Origin: Phascolarctobacterium sp.
GTDB lineage: Bacteria; Bacillota; Negativicutes; Acidaminococcales; Acidaminococcaceae
Direction of reading: 5' to 3'
Assembly (NCBI RefSeq): GCF_030531065.1
Contig: NZ_JAUNOQ010000008.1
Location: 1-64,000, forward strand
DNA: 64,000 nucleotides
Shown here piece after piece: positions 18,625 to 30,759 of this stretch (position 1 is its first letter; each line of letters starts with the position of its first letter). The notes under the pieces are model-generated. The model worked only from the letters and a program-made list of their open reading frames with translations, did not search any database and was not told the DNA's origin. Position numbers and translations under genes: made by a program.

Positions 18625-19314
18625 TTACAATCCTAAGCGCCACATTCCCGAATAGCCTACGCGCGTCACCTTTAAGCCCTTAATGCCAAGCAAAAGCTTG
18701 GTTATCTTCGGCCGCTCTGCCTTCGGCGTCCCTTTTTCGTAAGGCTCCTGGCAGAAGTAAATGAACCAGCGGTCCACCTCCTCGCAATCGTCCTTACACA
18801 AGCGGTTCCAATGAATAAACTGCGGCTCGCCGTACAGCTCCATAATTTTTTGGAAATCGTCGCCGACTTTCAAGCCCTTAAAGGTTTCCACATCAAGCCG
18901 CTTGGTTGTCAGCCGTTCCACCGGCGCTTCCTCGTCCGCTTCTACTCTGCCCCGCATCCACAGCTCGCCGTTCTCGTAAAAAGCGTGCGTCAATAGAACC
19001 GCCCGCTCTTCTTCATTTTCATCGTTCTGGTCGTCGTTGCCATCCTCATAAAAATAGCGAATCTCTAAAAGCTGTCCCAAATCCTCCGCCGCTTTGTTTA
19101 TCGTCGTCACCGTGCCGTTGGGCAGTACGCTATTGGTAATAACAATTTCCTCCTGCGAAAATAATTGGATATCTTTTTGATAAGCCGCTTCCTGAATTTG
19201 TTTTTGCTGAATCACTCTGTCCCGCACCGCGTTGCCCTGCTGCATTTCTCTGGCCAGGGCCGTGCCCGTCAGCAGCAGAGCCATAGCGACGCCCATGCTA
19301 ATAATTTTTTTCAT
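18625..19314 (-). CDS. Exported protein of unknown function, copy 1
   Basis: A 229-residue protein with a clear Sec signal peptide (MKKIISMGVAMALLLTG, cleavage after ALA near residue 21). It has an acidic middle (EDGNDDQNDENEEER) and a C-terminal half with LKVGDDFQKIMELYGEP and two cysteines near RLCKDDCEE. The GDxxxxIxxLYGxP pattern resembles proteins placed after Negativicutes autotransporters, but I recognise no named family. It begins 15 nt after the autotransporter stop, so it is co-transcribed and may help its secretion or stability (inference). Identical in sequence to the product of 24314-25003. Confidence 0.8.
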   Translation of the reverse strand: MKKIISMGVAMALLLTGTALAREMQQGNAVRDRVIQQKQIQEAAYQKDIQLFSQEEIVITNSVLPNGTVTTINKAAEDLGQLLEIRYFYEDGNDDQNDENEEERAVLLTHAFYENGELWMRGRVEADEEAPVERLTTKRLDVETFKGLKVGDDFQKIMELYGEPQFIHWNRLCKDDCEEVDRWFIYFCQEPYEKGTPKAERPKITKLLLGIKGLKVTRVGYSGMWRLGL

Positions 19315-19329
19315 AATCTGCACCTCTCT

Positions 19330-22300
19330 TTAGAATTCCCAGCGGAAGCCCGCTTCTATGCGATACGGCATCTTGGCGTGCGCCTTAAAGTTTCTTTCGG
19401 CGTCGAAGTAGAACGTGCAGCTGTTGCCCATGTCCACGTTCGCACCCACGCCTGCAACGTACCAGGTGTCCTTGAAATCGCTGCCGCCATACAGCCTGTC
19501 GCTGTCAAAATAAATATTATTGTCGCCGCCGTCCAGGAATTCGTGCATAATGAACGCCTTGGCGTAATAGCGGTGCGGATATTTGCGCTCGCTTTCTATT
19601 TCCTTGCTGATGATAAAGCCCGCGCGTCCTACCAGGCTGTCGGCGTCGCTCTGCACCACGCGCGCGCCGTTGCGCGTCGTGTAGCTGTCGCCCCACATAT
19701 AGCTGTAGGTCAGCTGCGCCTGCGGCTCGATGAACCAGTTGTCCTCGTTAAGTTTTTTCTTGCGCCCATATTCCGCGCTCAGGCTGCCAGCCCAGTTGTC
19801 GAACTCGCCGCGGTCGCCGTAAGCGGTGTCGTATTCGGAATCTATATAGCCGATGCGCGCTACCAAATCCCAGTAATGGTCGTGCTTGCGGATATTCGTA
19901 GCGTACAGCGTTAAATCGGTATAATTATTTTCGCCCCTGCCGCCGCGGAAGCCGGTGTCCGCCCAGGTGTGCCCCAAAGCGACGCCCTTGCGCCAGGTGC
20001 CGCTGCCGTCCTCCTGCACATCCTTGCGGTCGTAGCCCACCTGCACGGTTTTGGCGTGCGTGTTGAAGCCCAGGCTCCTGTTATCCTCCAGCTTTTTGCC
20101 GATGACCCGCGCCCAGGCGCCGCCCTCGTCGTTGGTAAAACGCAGCTCGCCCAAGCGTTTCAGCAGCGTATCGTCGTCGCGCCACAGCGCAAAGCCCGCG
20201 TTATAGGAATGGATGGGGCCGTCGCCGTTGGGGTTGCTCTTCTTAGTTTTGCCGGTGATGAACCAGTCGTTGTAATCCGTCTGTTCCGCGTTTTGCTCGG
20301 AATCGATATAAAATTCCAAATCATAAATGCCCTTTTCATTGATCGCGGTCACGGTGCTATACTCGCCAACATTGTCGCCGCCGTCGCCAAAGGTAGCGGC
20401 GTCCTGCTTAATCTGCGCAAAGTACAGCTTATCGTCGCTGGCCATTGCTCCCAAATTGCTGTTATTGTCTTTAAAAACAAGACGCTGCTCGCTGTTATCG
20501 CCGCCATGAATGTAGACGAAGTCGCTATCCGTCGCGTTCTCGTAAGATTTGACATCGTTATCGTGATAGGTCAAATCCATAATGAAAGTGCCGCTGCCGT
20601 TCAACGCCTTATCTATGGAGAGCTTGTGCGCGTTACCGCTGACAGTGCCGATTGATTTTTGCGTATAGCTTTCATTAGCTACATCGTAATAATACTCTAT
20701 TTCATCGTCAGCAATTTTTTCGATTTCCACCTCGTAATCCGTATAAGAAAAATCTTTTTCATTGGCAACCATGCTGACAACGCCGCCATCCAAATTCAAA
20801 TTAGTAACATTGCTGTCGCCCGTCATATACCAAGTCGTGTTTTTAAAAGTCAAATCGGTAGTAGAGCCGCCGTTTCTAACTCCATTGTCAGTTGTAACCG
20901 TGCCAATCAAATACGAGGACGAATCGTTGGCTTCCATATTGATAACGCCCTGATCATCAGCTATTAAAGACCCGGCTATCACCGCATCTTTTACGTTCAC
21001 CTCGCCCGAATCGTAAGTAACAATCGCTTTAAACTCTTGATTATCCGCGCTCTTGCCTGCGATAGAACCGCCCTGCATCTTTACTTTACTTTCTGCAGTT
21101 GCTTCAATGCCAGCCGTATATGAAAATGTATCTGTAGAGTTGTTAATTACAGTAATATCTGTGTCCGTTAAATTAACTTCGGCTTTAGTTGTGAAATCTT
21201 TATCTAAAGCGGCATCATATTTTTTGCTTTCCGTATAAACGCCAATAGTGTCATGATGTTCGCCTTCTGCCGTTACAATAATTTGCGAATTACTTTCTAC
21301 ATTAACTATATTACGCGCGCAAATACCTGTTGCGTCGCCGTTTCTAGCAATGTTGCTCGCTTTGAGAATTGCGTTTTCTTTTAATGTTACCTCAGCCGGA
21401 ATCATCTCGACATCCACGTGTTGCGGATCGTCTCTTAAAGGATTATCTACGGAATTGATATAAATTCCGCGCACAGTAATCTCGCCGTCGCCGGACCCCG
21501 CAGAATAGATTACGGAATTTTTGTCCGCAGTAACTTTACCATAATTTATATACATGGCATAAGAGGTACTGTTAGTATGCGGTTTGTCGATATTATCAAT
21601 ATAATCTTGGTCGTCTAATTTATCATAAGTATAGTGTTTTTCTGCTGTAGCTTCATTTATTGCAATGACTTTTAGGTTTTCTCCTATATTCACGACTGGA
21701 GCTGGGTATTCGTTCACATACTCAATATAATCTCTATGCGGATGAACCTCCGAATTAATACCGCGTACCCAAATACTGCCGTCGCCTTCGCCCTTAGCAA
21801 TAATTTTCAAATTATCGCCTACATCAAAAGTACCAGCATCTACATAAATTCCCGTTGCTTCGCCGCTGGCGGCGCTGCACGTTGCGTTGATTATAGTATC
21901 GCTTCCCAATGTTACGCTTGTCGGAAAATATTCTGCGCTGACGGCCCACGCCTTATCGTAACGGTCACCCCATGTCGAAGCTCTTATTATTGATTTATCT
22001 TCTAAAGTACCTATAGCCTCACTACGTATGCTAACGCCCCTAGCCCAACCAACTGTGTACGCACTCATATCTGTCGTATAATTATTTTCAGCTAATATCT
22101 TCGTGGTTCCTAATTCTATAGTGCTCCAATTTCTTGCATATATGCCATTGCTATCAGAAGTTTGCGATCTTGCTATTACTGTTCCATCTCCCATTTTAAC
22201 TGTAAGACCATCGCCGCGAGAATAAACCCCATAAACAGAATAGTCAGCAAGGACAGGATAAGTATCCAGATCAGGTTCTATTTCTATATACAACAGCTTG

Positions 22301-22602
22301 CTTAAATCATATGTGGTTTTTATATGATGATTATATAAATTTGCAGCGGTATTGCTTCCTCCTTTATATATAAGCCGATCATCTTCATCAAACGAATATG
22401 TATATGTATAGACCCCCATAATATTTGGATCATCTTGTATCTGTTTTTTTATAAACTGACCTTCACTATTTTTTTCCCAATTATAGCCATCATTCATACC
22501 AATTTGAACATTATAAACTTCAGCTTGCACGCCCAACGGCATTGCCAATAGCAATCCCAAGATTATCGCCTGCGCCAAAAATTTCTTTTTCTTTCCGCCC
22601 AT
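19330..22602 (-). CDS. Autotransporter (type Va), copy 1
   Basis: A 1090-residue type V secreted protein. Residues 1-~28 are a Sec signal peptide (basic GGKKKK then a hydrophobic core ending GVQA). A long repetitive passenger follows, built of short beta strands with recurring GIYA, ADKNSV and LG..T.I patterns expected of a beta-helix. The last ~264 residues (from GGAWARVIG) form an outer-membrane barrel ending in the beta-signal GFRWEF. The start at 22602 follows GAGAGG by 9 nt; the upstream frame is not supported. The passenger differs strongly from copy 2 while the barrel is identical. The function of the passenger (adhesion or other) is unknown. Confidence 0.9.
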   Translation of the reverse strand: MGGKKKKFLAQAIILGLLLAMPLGVQAEVYNVQIGMNDGYNWEKNSEGQFIKKQIQDDPNIMGVYTYTYSFDEDDRLIYKGGSNTAANLYNHHIKTTYDLSKLLYIEIEPDLDTYPVLADYSVYGVYSRGDGLTVKMGDGTVIARSQTSDSNGIYARNWSTIELGTTKILAENNYTTDMSAYTVGWARGVSIRSEAIGTLEDKSIIRASTWGDRYDKAWAVSAEYFPTSVTLGSDTIINATCSAASGEATGIYVDAGTFDVGDNLKIIAKGEGDGSIWVRGINSEVHPHRDYIEYVNEYPAPVVNIGENLKVIAINEATAEKHYTYDKLDDQDYIDNIDKPHTNSTSYAMYINYGKVTADKNSVIYSAGSGDGEITVRGIYINSVDNPLRDDPQHVDVEMIPAEVTLKENAILKASNIARNGDATGICARNIVNVESNSQIIVTAEGEHHDTIGVYTESKKYDAALDKDFTTKAEVNLTDTDITVINNSTDTFSYTAGIEATAESKVKMQGGSIAGKSADNQEFKAIVTYDSGEVNVKDAVIAGSLIADDQGVINMEANDSSSYLIGTVTTDNGVRNGGSTTDLTFKNTTWYMTGDSNVTNLNLDGGVVSMVANEKDFSYTDYEVEIEKIADDEIEYYYDVANESYTQKSIGTVSGNAHKLSIDKALNGSGTFIMDLTYHDNDVKSYENATDSDFVYIHGGDNSEQRLVFKDNNSNLGAMASDDKLYFAQIKQDAATFGDGGDNVGEYSTVTAINEKGIYDLEFYIDSEQNAEQTDYNDWFITGKTKKSNPNGDGPIHSYNAGFALWRDDDTLLKRLGELRFTNDEGGAWARVIGKKLEDNRSLGFNTHAKTVQVGYDRKDVQEDGSGTWRKGVALGHTWADTGFRGGRGENNYTDLTLYATNIRKHDHYWDLVARIGYIDSEYDTAYGDRGEFDNWAGSLSAEYGRKKKLNEDNWFIEPQAQLTYSYMWGDSYTTRNGARVVQSDADSLVGRAGFIISKEIESERKYPHRYYAKAFIMHEFLDGGDNNIYFDSDRLYGGSDFKDTWYVAGVGANVDMGNSCTFYFDAERNFKAHAKMPYRIEAGFRWEF

Positions 22603-22739
22603 CAAAATCATCCTCTCGAAAAAATTTTGCTCGCCCGCGTCGCGCAGGCTCGCCCAAAAATAAAATGCAGTTGCGCTTTGCAAAATTGCTATCGTCCTCG
22701 CAGCATAAATTGCTTACTGATATACGTTGCGCTAGTTTA

Positions 22740-22767
22740 ATTGTAGCATAGAAGTCCCCCCCGGCAA
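22740..22767 (-). promoter_or_regulatory. Promoter with 7-G spacer tract, autotransporter 1
   Basis: On the minus strand TTGCCG (22762-22767), a 16-bp spacer and an extended -10, TGC-TACAAT (-10 at 22740-22745). Seven consecutive G (22756-22762) run from the last base of the -35 into the spacer. Gain of one G would give the optimal 17-bp spacing. The -35 also lies inside the GGCAAGCT dyad. Confidence 0.6.
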
Positions 22768-22948
22768 GCTTCTTGTGTGTATAAATATTTACTTTTTCTA
22801 GCTTGCCTCTGTTTTACTTTTGGGGTAGTGGGACGATGAAAAGAAAAGCAGAATTTTTCCAACCGCTTGTATCTCAAAAATAAAAGCTGCGTAAAAATTT
22901 TTTGACAAGGATGGGTATAGTTATGATAAAAATTTCCCGCACAAAAAA

Positions 22949-23062: not shown

Positions 23063-23848
23063 CTACTCTTTTAAAAGTTTTTGAATTTCTGCACTGGCAC
23101 TTACTATATACTTAATATATGCTTTTCTCTCCACACTGTCGCTACCCTTTACCTGATCGTCTGTCGCCAAACGGCTGACTATTTTATCTAAGGGAACATC
23201 GTATTCCAATGCGTCAATTATTTTTTGCTCAATAATCTTATCGCTATAAAATCGATTTCGTAAATACGGAGATTTCCCCTCTTTATAACATTCAACATCT
23301 GAAATAGCTTTCTCCAGCACATCGCCAACAAGTTCATATTCTGCTTGTGAGCGCAAATATTCAAAATCAATATCATCGTAATGCGATAATATCATCATTT
23401 CAGGCAATTCATTATTATCCTGCCAAAACTCTCTGCCTTTCAATCTATCTAAAATTATATCTTCAATGCCAATAATTTTCGCAGTTCCATACTCCGTTTC
23501 AACTTCTGTTAAACGATTTATATCTCCCGCCAGCGGTGGTTTAGGAAATTCAACCACAACAGACGTATCAGGATGAAACCATGTGTATCCGTCGTCAATA
23601 GTAAAACCCAAAGAAGTCATAATCTTAGAAATTTGAAAATCATCCTTAGCGATAAAATCTATATCCTTAGTCATGTAGCTGGCCGCAGTATAAAATTCTA
23701 CCGCAGAACCGCCAACAACAACTAGCTCGTTAGAAAAATCCTTAGCCAAAGAACAAATAAGGCCGGCTATCAATAAACGTTCATTAACCGGATCAGATAT
23801 ATTTTGATTATGAATTTTCTTTATGGTGTTCCCATCTATACCTTGCAT
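23063..23848 (-). CDS. MNT-fold nucleotidyltransferase (AbiEii/DUF6036-like)
   Basis: A 261-residue protein with the minimal nucleotidyltransferase signature, GGSAV (residues 46-50) and D62-x-D64, seen in AbiEii-type toxins and related nucleotidyltransferases. The segment IIGIEDIILDRLKG near residue 130 fits the same group. A ribosome site (AAGGA) lies 8 nt before the ATG. It overlaps the preceding small gene by 13 bp, like a toxin-antitoxin or defence pair. DNA is AT-rich. Assigning it as a toxin is inference; the catalytic fold is well supported. Confidence 0.75.
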   Translation of the reverse strand: MQGIDGNTIKKIHNQNISDPVNERLLIAGLICSLAKDFSNELVVVGGSAVEFYTAASYMTKDIDFIAKDDFQISKIMTSLGFTIDDGYTWFHPDTSVVVEFPKPPLAGDINRLTEVETEYGTAKIIGIEDIILDRLKGREFWQDNNELPEMMILSHYDDIDFEYLRSQAEYELVGDVLEKAISDVECYKEGKSPYLRNRFYSDKIIEQKIIDALEYDVPLDKIVSRLATDDQVKGSDSVERKAYIKYIVSASAEIQKLLKE

Positions 23849-24313: not shown

Positions 24314-25003
24314 TTACAATCCTAAGCGCCACATTCCCGAATAGCCTACGCGCGTCACCTTTAAGCCCTTAATGCCAAGCAAAAGCTTGGTTATCTTCGG
24401 CCGCTCTGCCTTCGGCGTCCCTTTTTCGTAAGGCTCCTGGCAGAAGTAAATGAACCAGCGGTCCACCTCCTCGCAATCGTCCTTACACAAGCGGTTCCAA
24501 TGAATAAACTGCGGCTCGCCGTACAGCTCCATAATTTTTTGGAAATCGTCGCCGACTTTCAAGCCCTTAAAGGTTTCCACATCAAGCCGCTTGGTTGTCA
24601 GCCGTTCCACCGGCGCTTCCTCGTCCGCTTCTACTCTGCCCCGCATCCACAGCTCGCCGTTCTCGTAAAAAGCGTGCGTCAATAGAACCGCCCGCTCTTC
24701 TTCATTTTCATCGTTCTGGTCGTCGTTGCCATCCTCATAAAAATAGCGAATCTCTAAAAGCTGTCCCAAATCCTCCGCCGCTTTGTTTATCGTCGTCACC
24801 GTGCCGTTGGGCAGTACGCTATTGGTAATAACAATTTCCTCCTGCGAAAATAATTGGATATCTTTTTGATAAGCCGCTTCCTGAATTTGTTTTTGCTGAA
24901 TCACTCTGTCCCGCACCGCGTTGCCCTGCTGCATTTCTCTGGCCAGGGCCGTGCCCGTCAGCAGCAGAGCCATAGCGACGCCCATGCTAATAATTTTTTT
25001 CAT
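24314..25003 (-). CDS. Exported protein of unknown function, copy 2
   Basis: Encodes exactly the same 229-residue product as 18625-19314: signal peptide, acidic middle, GDDFQKIMELYGEP segment. The start at 25003 follows GAGAGG by 8 nt. It lies 15 nt after the second autotransporter. Perfect identity including silent sites points to very recent duplication or ongoing gene conversion rather than selection on the protein alone. Confidence 0.8.
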   Translation of the reverse strand: MKKIISMGVAMALLLTGTALAREMQQGNAVRDRVIQQKQIQEAAYQKDIQLFSQEEIVITNSVLPNGTVTTINKAAEDLGQLLEIRYFYEDGNDDQNDENEEERAVLLTHAFYENGELWMRGRVEADEEAPVERLTTKRLDVETFKGLKVGDDFQKIMELYGEPQFIHWNRLCKDDCEEVDRWFIYFCQEPYEKGTPKAERPKITKLLLGIKGLKVTRVGYSGMWRLGL

Positions 25004-25018
25004 AATCTGCACCTCTCT

Positions 25019-28000
25019 TTAGAATTCCCAGCGGAAGCCCGCTTCTATGCGATACGGCATCTTGGCGTGCGCCTTAAAGTTTCTTTCGGCGTCGAAGTAG
25101 AACGTGCAGCTGTTGCCCATGTCCACGTTCGCACCCACGCCTGCAACGTACCAGGTGTCCTTGAAATCGCTGCCGCCATACAGCCTGTCGCTGTCAAAAT
25201 AAATATTATTGTCGCCGCCGTCCAGGAATTCGTGCATAATGAACGCCTTGGCGTAATAGCGGTGCGGATATTTGCGCTCGCTTTCTATTTCCTTGCTGAT
25301 GATAAAGCCCGCGCGTCCTACCAGGCTGTCGGCGTCGCTCTGCACCACGCGCGCGCCGTTGCGCGTCGTGTAGCTGTCGCCCCACATATAGCTGTAGGTC
25401 AGCTGCGCCTGCGGCTCGATGAACCAGTTGTCCTCGTTAAGTTTTTTCTTGCGCCCATATTCCGCGCTCAGGCTGCCAGCCCAGTTGTCGAACTCGCCGC
25501 GGTCGCCGTAAGCGGTGTCGTATTCGGAATCTATATAGCCGATGCGCGCTACCAAATCCCAGTAATGGTCGTGCTTGCGGATATTCGTAGCGTACAGCGT
25601 TAAATCGGTATAATTATTTTCGCCCCTGCCGCCGCGGAAGCCGGTGTCCGCCCAGGTGTGCCCCAAAGCGACGCCCTTGCGCCAGGTGCCGCTGCCGTCC
25701 TCCTGCACATCCTTGCGGTCGTAGCCCACCTGCACGGTTTTGGCGTGCGTGTTGAAGCCCAGGCTCCTGTTATCCTCCAGCTTTTTGCCGATGACCCGCG
25801 CCCACGCGCCGCCCTCGTCGTTGGTAAAACGCAGCTCGCCCAGGCGTTTGAGCAGCGTGTCGTCGTCGCGCCACAGCGCAAAGCCCGCGTTATAAGAATG
25901 AATGGGGCCGTCGCCGTTGGGATTGCTCTTGTTCGTTTTGCCGGTGATGAACCAGTCGTTGTAATCCGCCTGCTCCGCGTTTTGTTCGGAATCGATATAA
26001 AATTCCAAATCGTAAATGCCTTTTTCGTTAATCGCCGTAACGGTATCATATTTTTCTCCGCCGTCCGTAACGCTATCGCCGCCGTCGCCGAAAGTCGCGG
26101 CGTTATTTTTTATCTGCGCAAAGTACAGCTTAGCGTCGCTGGCCATCGCTCCCAAATTGCTGTTGTTGTCTTTAAAAACAAGACGCTGCTCGCTGTTATC
26201 GCCGCCATGAATGTAAATGAAGTCGCTATCCGTCGCGTTCTCGTAAGATTTGACGTCGTTATCGTAATACTTCAAATCCATAATGAAAGTGCCGCTGCCG
26301 TTCAACGCCTTATCTATGGAGAGCTTCTGCGCGTTACCGCTGACAGTGCGCGCTAAATTTGCATTTTCCACCATGCTGACAATACCGTTATCCAAAGTTA
26401 GATTCGTAACATTACTGTCGCCGGTCAGATACCAGGTTGTATTTTTAAAAGTCAAATCAGTTTTGGTTTTGGAATCATCATCTACATTTTCTTCATAAGC
26501 GGTAGTAACCGCGCCAATAAGATACGATTGCGCATCGTTAGCTCGCATTTTAATTTGGCTTTGCGAATCCGCTTCCAAATCTCCTTCTACTATTATATTC
26601 TGTGCGCCGTCCGCATTAACATTGACCTGCGCCGCATCCGACGTTACGATAGCTTTAAAATTTTCGCCGTCCGCACTCTTACCGCTAATCGAACCGCCGC
26701 GCATAGTAACCTTGCTGCTATCTACAGCTTTGATGCCTGCGGTGTAAGCCGTGCTAGCGTTTGAATTATTGATTACCGAAATCACAGACGCAGTTCCTAA
26801 ATCGACGTCGCCCTTCTCGCTTGTGGCGTAAACGCCATAGCTGTCGTGCTTGCCCTCGCTGCCTGCTTCCGCCACGATTTGCGACGCGCCTTTAAAGACA
26901 ACGCTGTCGTGCGCATACACGCCGGTCGTTTCGCCGCCCTTAGAATTATTGATAGCTTGAATTGTTGCGCCGTCGCCAAATTCTACAATAGCATTTGTAT
27001 TCTTTATTACATCTTCCGACCAAATATTATTATTGGATGTATCTATGTAAATTCCGCGAACCTTAATACCATTTTCATTTGTATTTTTCATATTATTATC
27101 AATTTGCGCCTGTGAAATAATTTTAGCATTATCGCCAAACGAAACAGAACCGGCATTGATGAACATGCCGTAAGCCGTACCCGTAATAGCTTTATTCATT
27201 ATATTGATAGTTGCATTATTTTTTATATCTACATCTGGAATTAAACCAGAATTATCTGGAGACATTTGTGCGTTAATGCCACGAACCCAAACGCTTCCTG
27301 TACCGTAACCTGTGGAATTGATTGTCAATCCACCTTCAACTGAAACTAATCCACTATCCGCATAAATACCTACGGACTCACCATTACTCTTTACAGGATC
27401 ACTATCCTTATCGCCTACGCCTTCATAATCCGGAGCGGTTATTACACCATCACCTGTATATTCAAGATTTGTATTTATCGTCGTATTATTTCCTAGACTT
27501 ATACCTTTAGATGCATATTTTACACAGACACCCCACGCTTTAAGAAATCCGCCACTACAGCCAGAAGTATTTATGGTTGAACTCTCTCCTAAAGTAGCTG
27601 TAGATTTATAACTCAAAACTATGCCATAAACAATGCCTCTATTGCTTCCGTTATAAGAACTTACAGCGTTTATATCCACTTTACCAAAATCTATATCAAT
27701 ACTGCCTTTATTAGAATACGATATTGCATCAACACCTGCTATATACCTAAAATTTCCTTCTGCCTTAATATTACAATCTCTCAATATAAGTTTTTTATTT
27801 TCACCTGCCACAAGAATAGCCCTTAAAGTATCTCCCGAATCATTTCTAGTATATTCAATATATCCAAGATTACCTAAATCAAAAATCTTATTATCGGTAG
27901 TAGATTCATATAAATATACCGCATTTGCTCCATACATTGGATCATTGCAGATAAGTCTATCATCTGCTGAGAAATTATATGTATATTTATTATTTATGTT

Positions 28001-28162
28001 ATCAATAGTTAAGATATTGTCCATCCCAGGTGTAGTAGGATAATTAGATCTATTACCGGTAACTCGCTGTGTATAATCCTTCGCCTGCACGCCCAACGGC
28101 ACAGCCAGCAGCAAGCCCAAGGTTATCGCCTGCACTAAAAATTTCTTTTTCTTTCCGCCCAT
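25019..28162 (-). CDS. Autotransporter (type Va), copy 2
   Basis: A 1047-residue protein with the same plan as copy 1: signal peptide (residues 1-~28), a beta-helical passenger, and a 264-residue barrel ending GFRWEF that is identical to copy 1. The passenger's first ~600 residues are only distantly related to copy 1. Similarity returns from about the TWYLTGDSNVTNL segment onward and becomes perfect at the barrel. The start at 28162 (9 nt after GAGAGG) gives MGGKKKKF. The divergent surface part on a constant anchor suggests diversifying selection or cassette replacement of the passenger. Confidence 0.9.
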   Translation of the reverse strand: MGGKKKKFLVQAITLGLLLAVPLGVQAKDYTQRVTGNRSNYPTTPGMDNILTIDNINNKYTYNFSADDRLICNDPMYGANAVYLYESTTDNKIFDLGNLGYIEYTRNDSGDTLRAILVAGENKKLILRDCNIKAEGNFRYIAGVDAISYSNKGSIDIDFGKVDINAVSSYNGSNRGIVYGIVLSYKSTATLGESSTINTSGCSGGFLKAWGVCVKYASKGISLGNNTTINTNLEYTGDGVITAPDYEGVGDKDSDPVKSNGESVGIYADSGLVSVEGGLTINSTGYGTGSVWVRGINAQMSPDNSGLIPDVDIKNNATINIMNKAITGTAYGMFINAGSVSFGDNAKIISQAQIDNNMKNTNENGIKVRGIYIDTSNNNIWSEDVIKNTNAIVEFGDGATIQAINNSKGGETTGVYAHDSVVFKGASQIVAEAGSEGKHDSYGVYATSEKGDVDLGTASVISVINNSNASTAYTAGIKAVDSSKVTMRGGSISGKSADGENFKAIVTSDAAQVNVNADGAQNIIVEGDLEADSQSQIKMRANDAQSYLIGAVTTAYEENVDDDSKTKTDLTFKNTTWYLTGDSNVTNLTLDNGIVSMVENANLARTVSGNAQKLSIDKALNGSGTFIMDLKYYDNDVKSYENATDSDFIYIHGGDNSEQRLVFKDNNSNLGAMASDAKLYFAQIKNNAATFGDGGDSVTDGGEKYDTVTAINEKGIYDLEFYIDSEQNAEQADYNDWFITGKTNKSNPNGDGPIHSYNAGFALWRDDDTLLKRLGELRFTNDEGGAWARVIGKKLEDNRSLGFNTHAKTVQVGYDRKDVQEDGSGTWRKGVALGHTWADTGFRGGRGENNYTDLTLYATNIRKHDHYWDLVARIGYIDSEYDTAYGDRGEFDNWAGSLSAEYGRKKKLNEDNWFIEPQAQLTYSYMWGDSYTTRNGARVVQSDADSLVGRAGFIISKEIESERKYPHRYYAKAFIMHEFLDGGDNNIYFDSDRLYGGSDFKDTWYVAGVGANVDMGNSCTFYFDAERNFKAHAKMPYRIEAGFRWEF

Positions 28163-28298: not shown

Positions 28299-28326
28299 AT
28301 TGTAGCATAGAAGTCCCCCCCGGCAA
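28299..28326 (-). promoter_or_regulatory. Promoter with 7-G spacer tract, autotransporter 2
   Basis: TTGCCG (28321-28326), a 16-bp spacer and TGC-TACAAT (-10 at 28299-28304). The G tract is 28315-28321, also seven bases. Same layout as copy 1. Confidence 0.6.
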
Positions 28327-28587: not shown

Positions 28588-29232
28588 TTAACGACCGTTT
28601 ATCCTCTTATTGATGTACCACTCTATAATACCTAAATACTCAGGCTTATCGCCATTGGCGTTTACTCTGGAATATGTGTCTAAAAAGCTTCTTAACTTAC
28701 CAATCGCCCAATCTTTGGTACCGTAGCGTTTTTTCAGCAAAAGAATTACTTCCTCAAGCTTCGCCTTTCTATTCATTGGTAAACGATGCTGCCGGCTATT
28801 TAAATTAAGAGTATCATTCAAATCACTATTTACTGTTTCATCTGAAGAATGAATTTCGCCGTTAGCGCTGCAATAATAAATGCCCCTTAAGGTACTCTCA
28901 TTTAATGGACTTACTGTAATCGGCGTATCTTTTTTATGAGCGTCGCAGGTATCGTCCCTACCTTGCTGACCTTCCAGATGACCGGAACAAACGCCAAGCA
29001 GATTTCTATAATCCATTTTTTCATATTCCGTCAGCAAGCATTCCGGTATCCAGTGTTCTATACGCGCAGAATCCTTATCAATCCTGCGCATACAATAAGC
29101 GCAAAGATTACCTTGCTCAGCCGTTAAGCTTTCCCTTATTGCCGATTTCGGACAGCCGTCATAATACGCATGCTCTTGCAGCTTATATTCTGTTAAAGCT
29201 CTTGGTTCGCGCCCTTTATCAATAAATATCAT
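28588..29232 (-). CDS. ptuB: Septu-type HNH endonuclease PtuB
   Basis: A 214-residue protein of the TIGR02646-like HNH family. Cys44-x2-Cys47 (CAYC), His60 in RIEHWIPE and Asn77 in YRNLLGVCSGH form the HNH/zinc core. In Septu systems this nuclease is held by the PtuA ATPase and cuts nucleic acid on phage infection. Its ATG overlaps the ptuA stop (ATGA), so the two are translated together. No reverse transcriptase or retron RNA lies nearby, so this is a stand-alone pair rather than a retron effector. Confidence 0.85.
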   Translation of the reverse strand: MIFIDKGREPRALTEYKLQEHAYYDGCPKSAIRESLTAEQGNLCAYCMRRIDKDSARIEHWIPECLLTEYEKMDYRNLLGVCSGHLEGQQGRDDTCDAHKKDTPITVSPLNESTLRGIYYCSANGEIHSSDETVNSDLNDTLNLNSRQHRLPMNRKAKLEEVILLLKKRYGTKDWAIGKLRSFLDTYSRVNANGDKPEYLGIIEWYINKRINGR

Positions 29233-30500
29233 AAGCCGTCACCTAAATCCATAGTATCAAACTCAAAACGTGCACGCATTTTAACTACATTAGTGGACTC
29301 AGGTTTAGTTTCTTCTTCAACTCTGGCTAAAATTTCTTTCGCTTCATTAAATTTTCCCTTATCCATAGCATTATAAAAGCTATCAATCTCTTTTTGAATA
29401 CTGATAGGAATATCGTTTGTTTTCTGAAAATCCTTTATGGAAGCATTAACATCGAGGCCGTAATGAGATTCTGAATAAGTAATCTCCGGCCTCTCAACAT
29501 CTATTAGCCAAACATTTTTCGCAGAAGCAAAAAGAATCGGAGCATGAGTAGTCGCTATAAATTGCACATTGGGAAATACATTTCTTAAAGCTTCAATAAT
29601 ATTCCACTGCCATCTCGGATGTATATGCATATCTATTTCGTCTATCAACACTATGCCTTTAGTTTTAGCTATATCCATTTTTTTTGCAGGATTCAATACC
29701 GCCATTCTATAAGCAATATCAAAAACCATCCATATCAAAGATTGGTAGCCCGCGCTTAAACTATTAATAGTCGCTACATTATGGTCTACAGAATAAACTA
29801 ATTCTTCCATTTGTTTATCATAAAAAATTTTATACTCGCCTTCGCCGTTAATTTGCTTCATAAAATTAGCTACGGCTTGCTTCGCAGCTTCGTATTCAGC
29901 AATTTTGCTTTCTTTTTGCCAAGACACCTGCTCCATTTTAACGCACCAATTTAATAATAATTTAATATTGGAAGCATCTGCAAGCGCGTCGATATATCCT
30001 GCAGTTCGAGAATATTTTGTCTTAAAAACATTTTCTGATTTTTCTCGTTTCTGGCTCCACACTCTTCCGGCGCCCTGCAAACAGATAACCGGTAGTTCGG
30101 CATATTCATCGCATTGCAATTGTTCCGCATATTTTACAATATCTTTGGGGCTGGTAGTAGTACGAGAAGATTTTACGCTGGCTCTGCTTCTAATCAATTC
30201 ATATTGCCGCTCATCAATTTCAATATTTAATGATACTTCAGTAGGCGTCTTATAAAATTCACTGCAAGAACCGTCGCCCATTAATTTCCATTCTTTTCTA
30301 ATTTCTTCTTTGGAAAAATGTCTGGTAGAAACGTCAGAAAATCCGCCTATAAACCCGCCTAAGCCTACGGCTATAGCTTCAACAATAGAAGTTTTTCCTT
30401 TACCGTTTTCACCTTTAATCAGATTAAATCCTGGTTTAAATTCAATGGTACTATCTTCTATTCCTCGAAAATTTCTTATTCTTATATTGTTAATATACAT
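29229..30500 (-). CDS. ptuA: Septu-type AAA ATPase PtuA
   Basis: A 423-residue SMC/ABC-like ATPase. It has an N-terminal RNFRGIE segment and Walker A GENGKGKTS (30-38). An ABC-type signature LSAGYQS (248-254), Walker B IVLIDEID (283-290) and the H-loop TTHAP (317-321) follow. A coiled middle (about 180-230) lies between. With the neighbouring HNH protein this matches the Septu anti-phage pair. I use ATG 30500 (GCAGGAGG upstream); the frame to 30518 starts in that ribosome site. AT-rich, in an accessory island. Confidence 0.87.
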   Translation of the reverse strand: MYINNIRIRNFRGIEDSTIEFKPGFNLIKGENGKGKTSIVEAIAVGLGGFIGGFSDVSTRHFSKEEIRKEWKLMGDGSCSEFYKTPTEVSLNIEIDERQYELIRSRASVKSSRTTTSPKDIVKYAEQLQCDEYAELPVICLQGAGRVWSQKREKSENVFKTKYSRTAGYIDALADASNIKLLLNWCVKMEQVSWQKESKIAEYEAAKQAVANFMKQINGEGEYKIFYDKQMEELVYSVDHNVATINSLSAGYQSLIWMVFDIAYRMAVLNPAKKMDIAKTKGIVLIDEIDMHIHPRWQWNIIEALRNVFPNVQFIATTHAPILFASAKNVWLIDVERPEITYSESHYGLDVNASIKDFQKTNDIPISIQKEIDSFYNAMDKGKFNEAKEILARVEEETKPESTNVVKMRARFEFDTMDLGDGL

Positions 30501-30759
30501 TGTGGCAGCCTCCTGCAATTCGTATATTTACATTATAACTGATTTCTGCTAAATATTAAAGAATTAACCTTAATAAAGCGTGGAAATCCATTTTCCAACT
30601 ACGGGAGCACGATATAGACAAAGCAATAAAAGTTCAGAAGCCGCATTTCATTGTAGAAATCATTTCTTAAAATCAATTTGCCCCCGCAGGTTAATGCTTG
30701 CGCAAATCGCGCCGATTGCCTATAATAAGAAGTAAGCTGAAATTTTGGAGGGATTATCA

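Follow-up and report, generated by a model that had tools for sequence, protein, structure and literature searches.

Two autotransporter genes with paired G-tract promoters

The window, i.e. the whole stretch of 64,000 nucleotides analysed here, holds two autotransporter genes, each with its own promoter carrying a run of seven G (G7):

18625..19323, minus strand: secreted-protein ORF of 232 aa, just 3' of autotransporter 1
19330..22602, minus strand: autotransporter 1, PF03797 Autotransporter beta-domain (1.1e-35)
22603..22739, minus strand: 5' leader of autotransporter 1, identical over most of its length to that of autotransporter 2
22740..22767, minus strand: promoter of autotransporter 1, with -35 TTGCCG (22767-22762), 16-bp spacer and extended -10 TGC-TACAAT (22745-22740)
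22756..22762, minus strand: G7 tract of this promoter, exactly seven G, of which the first ends the -35 and the rest run into the spacer
24314..25012, minus strand: second copy of the 232-aa secreted-protein ORF, 3' of autotransporter 2 (0 of 699 nt differ)
25019..28162, minus strand: autotransporter 2, likely start ATG 28162, PF03797 (9.8e-36)
28299..28326, minus strand: twin promoter, that of autotransporter 2, with TTGCCG, 16 bp and TGC-TACAAT
28315..28321, minus strand: G7 tract of the twin promoter, the sole other G7 within the window

Autotransporter 1 likely starts at the ATG at 22602, with the signal peptide MGGKKKKFLAQAIILGLLLAMPLGVQA, while its longest ORF begins at 22683. The C-terminal parts of the two autotransporters are near-identical, and the two copies of the 699-nt ORF (18625-19323 and 24314-25012) suggest gene conversion or a duplication of recent date. 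Next to the autotransporters are a DUF6036 nucleotidyltransferase-like gene and a gene for a 429-aa AAA/SMC-type ATPase with a 214-aa partner ORF (23063-23848, 28588-30518); a toxin-antitoxin or defence function is possible for them.

Read on the minus strand from 22767 down to 22740, the promoter of autotransporter 1 consists of TTGCCG, the 16-nt spacer GGGGGGACTTCTATGC and TACAAT, with TGC preceding the -10, and lies about 140 bp upstream of its gene. This confirms the original observation of seven G extending from the -35 into a 16-bp spacer ahead of an extended -10. From the tract to about 90 bp past the -10, i.e. over the promoters and most of the leaders, the two autotransporter copies are identical. 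G7 runs per se are unremarkable, since the window holds two and shuffled versions of it a mean of 6.5; both of the window runs occupy the equivalent position in two paralogous autotransporter promoters.

A class of G-tract promoters in the genome

The site originally singled out is one member of a genome-wide class: about 36 promoters that share the architecture TTG..G7-8..TATAAT were found in this Phascolarctobacterium-type genome. This number, like the other genome-wide counts based on pattern searches and retrieved stretches, comprises 34 of 35 listed promoters (L128 looks doubtful and is not counted), a further one at G000:C19:192275 and a G6 copy at C19:125972. In the shared architecture TTG (often CTTG) abuts or overlaps the G run, which is usually followed by ACAAG, TACAAG or CAGATG and then by TATAAT or TACAAT.

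Reversed patterns served as controls and gave between zero and two matches. The pattern TTGNCGGGGGGGACNNNTNTGNTANAAT, searched with at most two mismatches, occurs at 13 sites genome-wide (none for the reversed pattern), and GGGGGGN{5,14}TANAAT gave 52 listed matches, overlapping registers being counted separately, against two in the control. The retrieved loci of the genome contain 55 distinct runs of at least seven G, most of them within the TTG-G-tract-TATAAT architecture. When eight genomes were searched with a query that did not demand a G run, nearly all of the motif-shaped matches nevertheless carried G6 to G9 and the remainder stayed at about control level. The existence of a class of G-tract promoters is nearly certain. 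Its members are best read, from their motifs, as sigma-70-type promoters with a length-variable tract.

Genes downstream of the G-tract promoters

The G-tract promoters drive surface structures, as indicated by PF03797 in both window genes and by the surface genes found behind them throughout the genome. Fifteen of the 17 autotransporter beta-domains of the genome lie behind such a promoter, as do six of the seven Bac_transf genes (WbaP-like initiating transferase, capsule or O-antigen); if the genome is taken to hold roughly 2200 genes, chance is very far from explaining either association. Further targets in the same genome are ESPR/YadA trimeric adhesins, a ShlB/POTRA transporter (TpsB), a TonB receptor and an SLH porin, in addition to a type III methyltransferase (Mod), a dynamin-like GTPase and some proteins that could not be assigned. 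Gene content differs among the three polysaccharide loci that were followed over a longer distance, the gene names being taken from sequence reading and not from profiles. Downstream genes in the relatives are again mostly surface-related: CpsB/CapC, TibC-like, Polysacc_synt_2, MBOAT, sulfatase-fold and SLH porin genes.

At one locus (L315, G000:C4:170000-175050) a type III restriction-modification methyltransferase gene followed by a long Res-like ORF lies behind a G7 promoter. Its gene content makes it a candidate phasevarion.

Occurrence in related genomes

The strict motif was detected in 17 of 59 genomes of the family, distributed over seven of 18 genera. Named carriers belong to Phascolarctobacterium and include P. 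faecium DSM 14760 and Phascolarctobacterium sp. ET69; a few matches were present in Selenomonas-type MAGs, and two large sister genera within the family (g13 and g14) had almost none. Spread throughout the class was rejected, as counts beyond the family were mostly near those of the reversed control; exact matches outside the family were seen in named Selenomonas, in Schwartzia and on two Clostridia MAG contigs. An origin in or spread by phages was likewise rejected, because viral contigs do not contain the exact motif and the looser matches there have no G tract. A sequence search of named genomes returned no relatives of the autotransporters.

Many of the MAG promoters are located near contig ends, at a distance of a few hundred bases (L268-L273, L277-L282), which is expected if promoter and leader form repeated cassettes.

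Spacing between the -35 and -10 elements

Tract length and spacing go together in the deduplicated list of the genome: G7 corresponds to 16 bp (29 sites) and G8 to 17 bp (five sites), and outside this list there are one more G7 copy and one G6 site with 15 bp. Ordinary promoters, defined as TTGACA with at most one mismatch and without a G run, were collected from the same DNA and compared with shuffled sequence. They show a sharp peak at 17 bp (37 versus about 12 expected) and no excess at 16 bp (12 versus about 13), so that the G-tract promoters are mostly one base short of the spacing preferred by the genome (Fisher p 4e-8 for G-tract versus ordinary promoters at 16 and 17 bp, to be taken as a guide only since the loci are non-independent). 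It had been proposed that one additional G would bring the window promoter to 17 bp, and this length indeed coincides with the peak of the ordinary promoters. In the relatives, represented by a smaller DNA set, the 17-bp peak was not confirmed. At least one major porin gene that is probably needed by the cell has G7 and 16 bp, which makes it unlikely that a 16-bp promoter is fully silent.

The tract lies 9, 10 or 11 nt from the -10 depending on the flank type, yet the total is 16 bp in each case, indicating that the conserved property is the spacing and not the position of the tract. At least three flank types arrive at 16 bp by such different routes. These routes bear on the reading that we are dealing with ordinary strong promoters of the lineage in which a G run arose by chance, spread through duplicated promoter cassettes and their genes and devoid of regulatory meaning. 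Obvious duplicates do exist (the window pair, L138/L145 and L141/L149), and many sites of the relatives are found at contig ends as repeats would be, but the design is common to unrelated genes and unrelated flanks, and the genome's ordinary promoters have no such run and show their peak at 17 bp. We regard duplication without regulatory meaning as improbable.

Variation of tract length

Among 138 sites in 13 relatives we counted 104 G7, 22 G8, seven G9, four G6 and one G10 tract; these lengths come from one assembly per species, many of them MAGs in which homopolymer lengths can err, and the query required at least six G, so that shorter tracts are under-counted. When all sites were grouped within each genus into clusters of matching promoters, tract length differed in 12 of 33 clusters, and the adjacent sequence (30 bp on the -35 side, 17 bp on the -10 side) was free of indels, the grouping being biased against flank indels because ungapped identity defined the clusters. 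Indels did appear when 100 bp were compared with gaps allowed; almost all lay downstream of the tract, and they were concentrated in one genus. In the remaining 21 clusters tract length was constant, many orthologous promoters having the same length in different species.

Individual pairs illustrate the differences. L162 (G8) and L191 (G7) stem from two species and have 100 identical flank bases, L218 and L244 carry G7 where L224 carries G9, and within one genome (G032) L165 has G7 and L166 G8, with L162 and L167 also one G apart. Our own genome contains such a pair as well (L153, G7; L127, G8). Given that the relatives are mostly metagenome assemblies, the differences could be homopolymer errors of sequencing or assembly; short-read errors are rare at runs of 7-8 bp, and the one-G differences between near-identical promoters inside single assemblies (G032 and our own) with indel-free flanks speak against this explanation, which we consider hardly credible.

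The claim that the tract can change in length is borne out by the flank-matched promoters of the 12 clusters. The only close copy of the window promoter, its twin at autotransporter 2, has the same tract length, G7, and the phase-variation reading of this particular promoter is partly supported by the comparisons.

Slippage or a fixed regulatory element

A slippage-variable tract that tunes the promoter spacing of surface loci is probably the best explanation for these observations, and the class likely functions as a set of phase switches, as judged from sequence. According to this model, replication slippage would add or remove one G and thereby shift the spacing between -35 and -10, with G6 to G9 giving 15, 16, 17 and 18 bp within one flank type. 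G7 with 16 bp would be the usual state, and G8 with 17 bp is predicted to be transcribed more strongly. Each of the approximately 36 surface loci, i.e. autotransporters, trimeric adhesins, polysaccharide operons, porins and one type III restriction-modification system, would be tuned independently, which would generate a combinatorial surface repertoire. Slippage of the spacing would jointly account for the purity of the run, its position between -35 and -10, the indels confined to the tract, the 16/17-bp pattern and the surface genes downstream; slippage as the cause, a difference in expression and switching within populations are what we infer from them.

Several points cast doubt on slippage: the tract is short (7-8 G), MutL is present, the length distribution peaks sharply at seven, 21 clusters show no change in length, and there are porin genes with G7. 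Most known switching tracts are longer than 7-8. MutL_C was found in 55 of 59 genomes of the family, including our own and all high-quality ones. Loss of mismatch repair was rejected as a driver on this basis, as a genome with the MutL gene cannot owe high slippage to loss of repair.

The main rival, which we consider unlikely but clearly more plausible than duplication or error, treats the G tract as a fixed regulatory element common to a surface regulon, with length changes that are rare and confined to evolutionary time, acting either as an operator for an activator or repressor or as a spacer whose stiffness or twist renders the promoter responsive to supercoiling. The uniform G7 with its near-perfect purity in many genes and genera, the coherent set of surface genes, the presence of MutL and the constant length in 21 of 33 clusters fit such an element well. 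It accounts poorly for a tract whose distance from the -10 varies by as much as 2 bp while the -35/-10 spacing holds at 16, and for matching promoters, in some cases from one genome, that differ by no indel other than in tract length. A fixed element and slippage could also coexist.

Relation to known phase-variable systems

In the Neisseria genes porA and fetA/frpB a homopolymeric G or C tract lies between -35 and -10, and its length alters spacing and transcription; three transcriptional phase-variable genes are listed for N. gonorrhoeae NCCP11945 (PMC5320596). In the promoters described here a homopolymeric tract likewise sits in the spacer ahead of a gene for an outer-membrane protein, and tract length varies between related copies with constant flanks (12 of 33 clusters). 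They differ from the Neisseria cases in number and uniformity (about 36 promoters of one architecture), in their shorter tracts (mostly seven) and in their lineage, which is Negativicutes (Acidaminococcaceae) and not Proteobacteria, and their switching is a prediction from sequence. Most of the known tracts in the Campylobacter and Neisseria phasomes work via the reading frame. These phasomes place many surface, polysaccharide and restriction-modification genes under G/C tracts in one genome (PMC6321876, PMC8355987). In contrast, all candidates described here are located in a promoter spacer and belong to a gut commensal. The promoters of Bacteroides capsule loci switch through DNA inversion by recombinases. 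They provide a precedent for many polysaccharide loci with their own switchable promoters in one gut commensal (PMC11868660 and references there). The variable feature in our promoters differs from theirs in being a homopolymer tract. New relative to the known cases are the scale, the lineage and the uniform architecture.

Taken further, the data may describe a promoter-level phasome in the gut commensal Phascolarctobacterium and related Acidaminococcaceae, in which the G-tract promoters of dozens of surface loci, among them six polysaccharide operons and a type III restriction-modification system, are one base short of the optimal spacing and single-G slips raise or lower each of them independently; we see the chances of this wider picture as evenly balanced. 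A literature search, with subscription journals and preprints mostly outside its scope, did not find phase variation described in Phascolarctobacterium. A 2025 review remarked that a large number of phase-variable loci in one genome seems confined to pathogens and raised the question of database bias (PMC11868660). If the proposal is correct, about 36 promoter-level candidates in a common gut commensal lineage would partly answer this question and account for surface diversity that bears on phage and immune recognition, and tract length per site would become a simple sequence read-out of surface state in metagenomes.

Further features of the promoter flanks

Two other interpretations of the promoters were considered and discarded. 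Promoters with a strong TTGAC -35 resembled those of rRNA and tRNA genes, but no rRNA was found, nor any tRNA directly downstream. An inverted-repeat operator TTGT-N8-ACAA around the tract is present in some promoters of our genome and not conserved in other genera.

Another inverted repeat, GGCAAGCT...AGCTTGCC, with arms about 30 bp apart, is common to L009 and the window (22760-22812), and in some promoters the -35 is overlapped by its right arm. At L136 (G000:C16:35124-35130) a G7 run without the usual -10 precedes another autotransporter gene by about 150-200 bp; it could be a switch that has decayed or one of another kind. In one flank type the 30 bp upstream of the -35 form a hairpin, perfect or nearly so, that adjoins the -35 (L027, L153, L155, L011, L190, L218 and L252). 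The sequence of its stem varies across copies and genera with complementarity being kept, and the hairpin is possibly a compact terminator or insulator.
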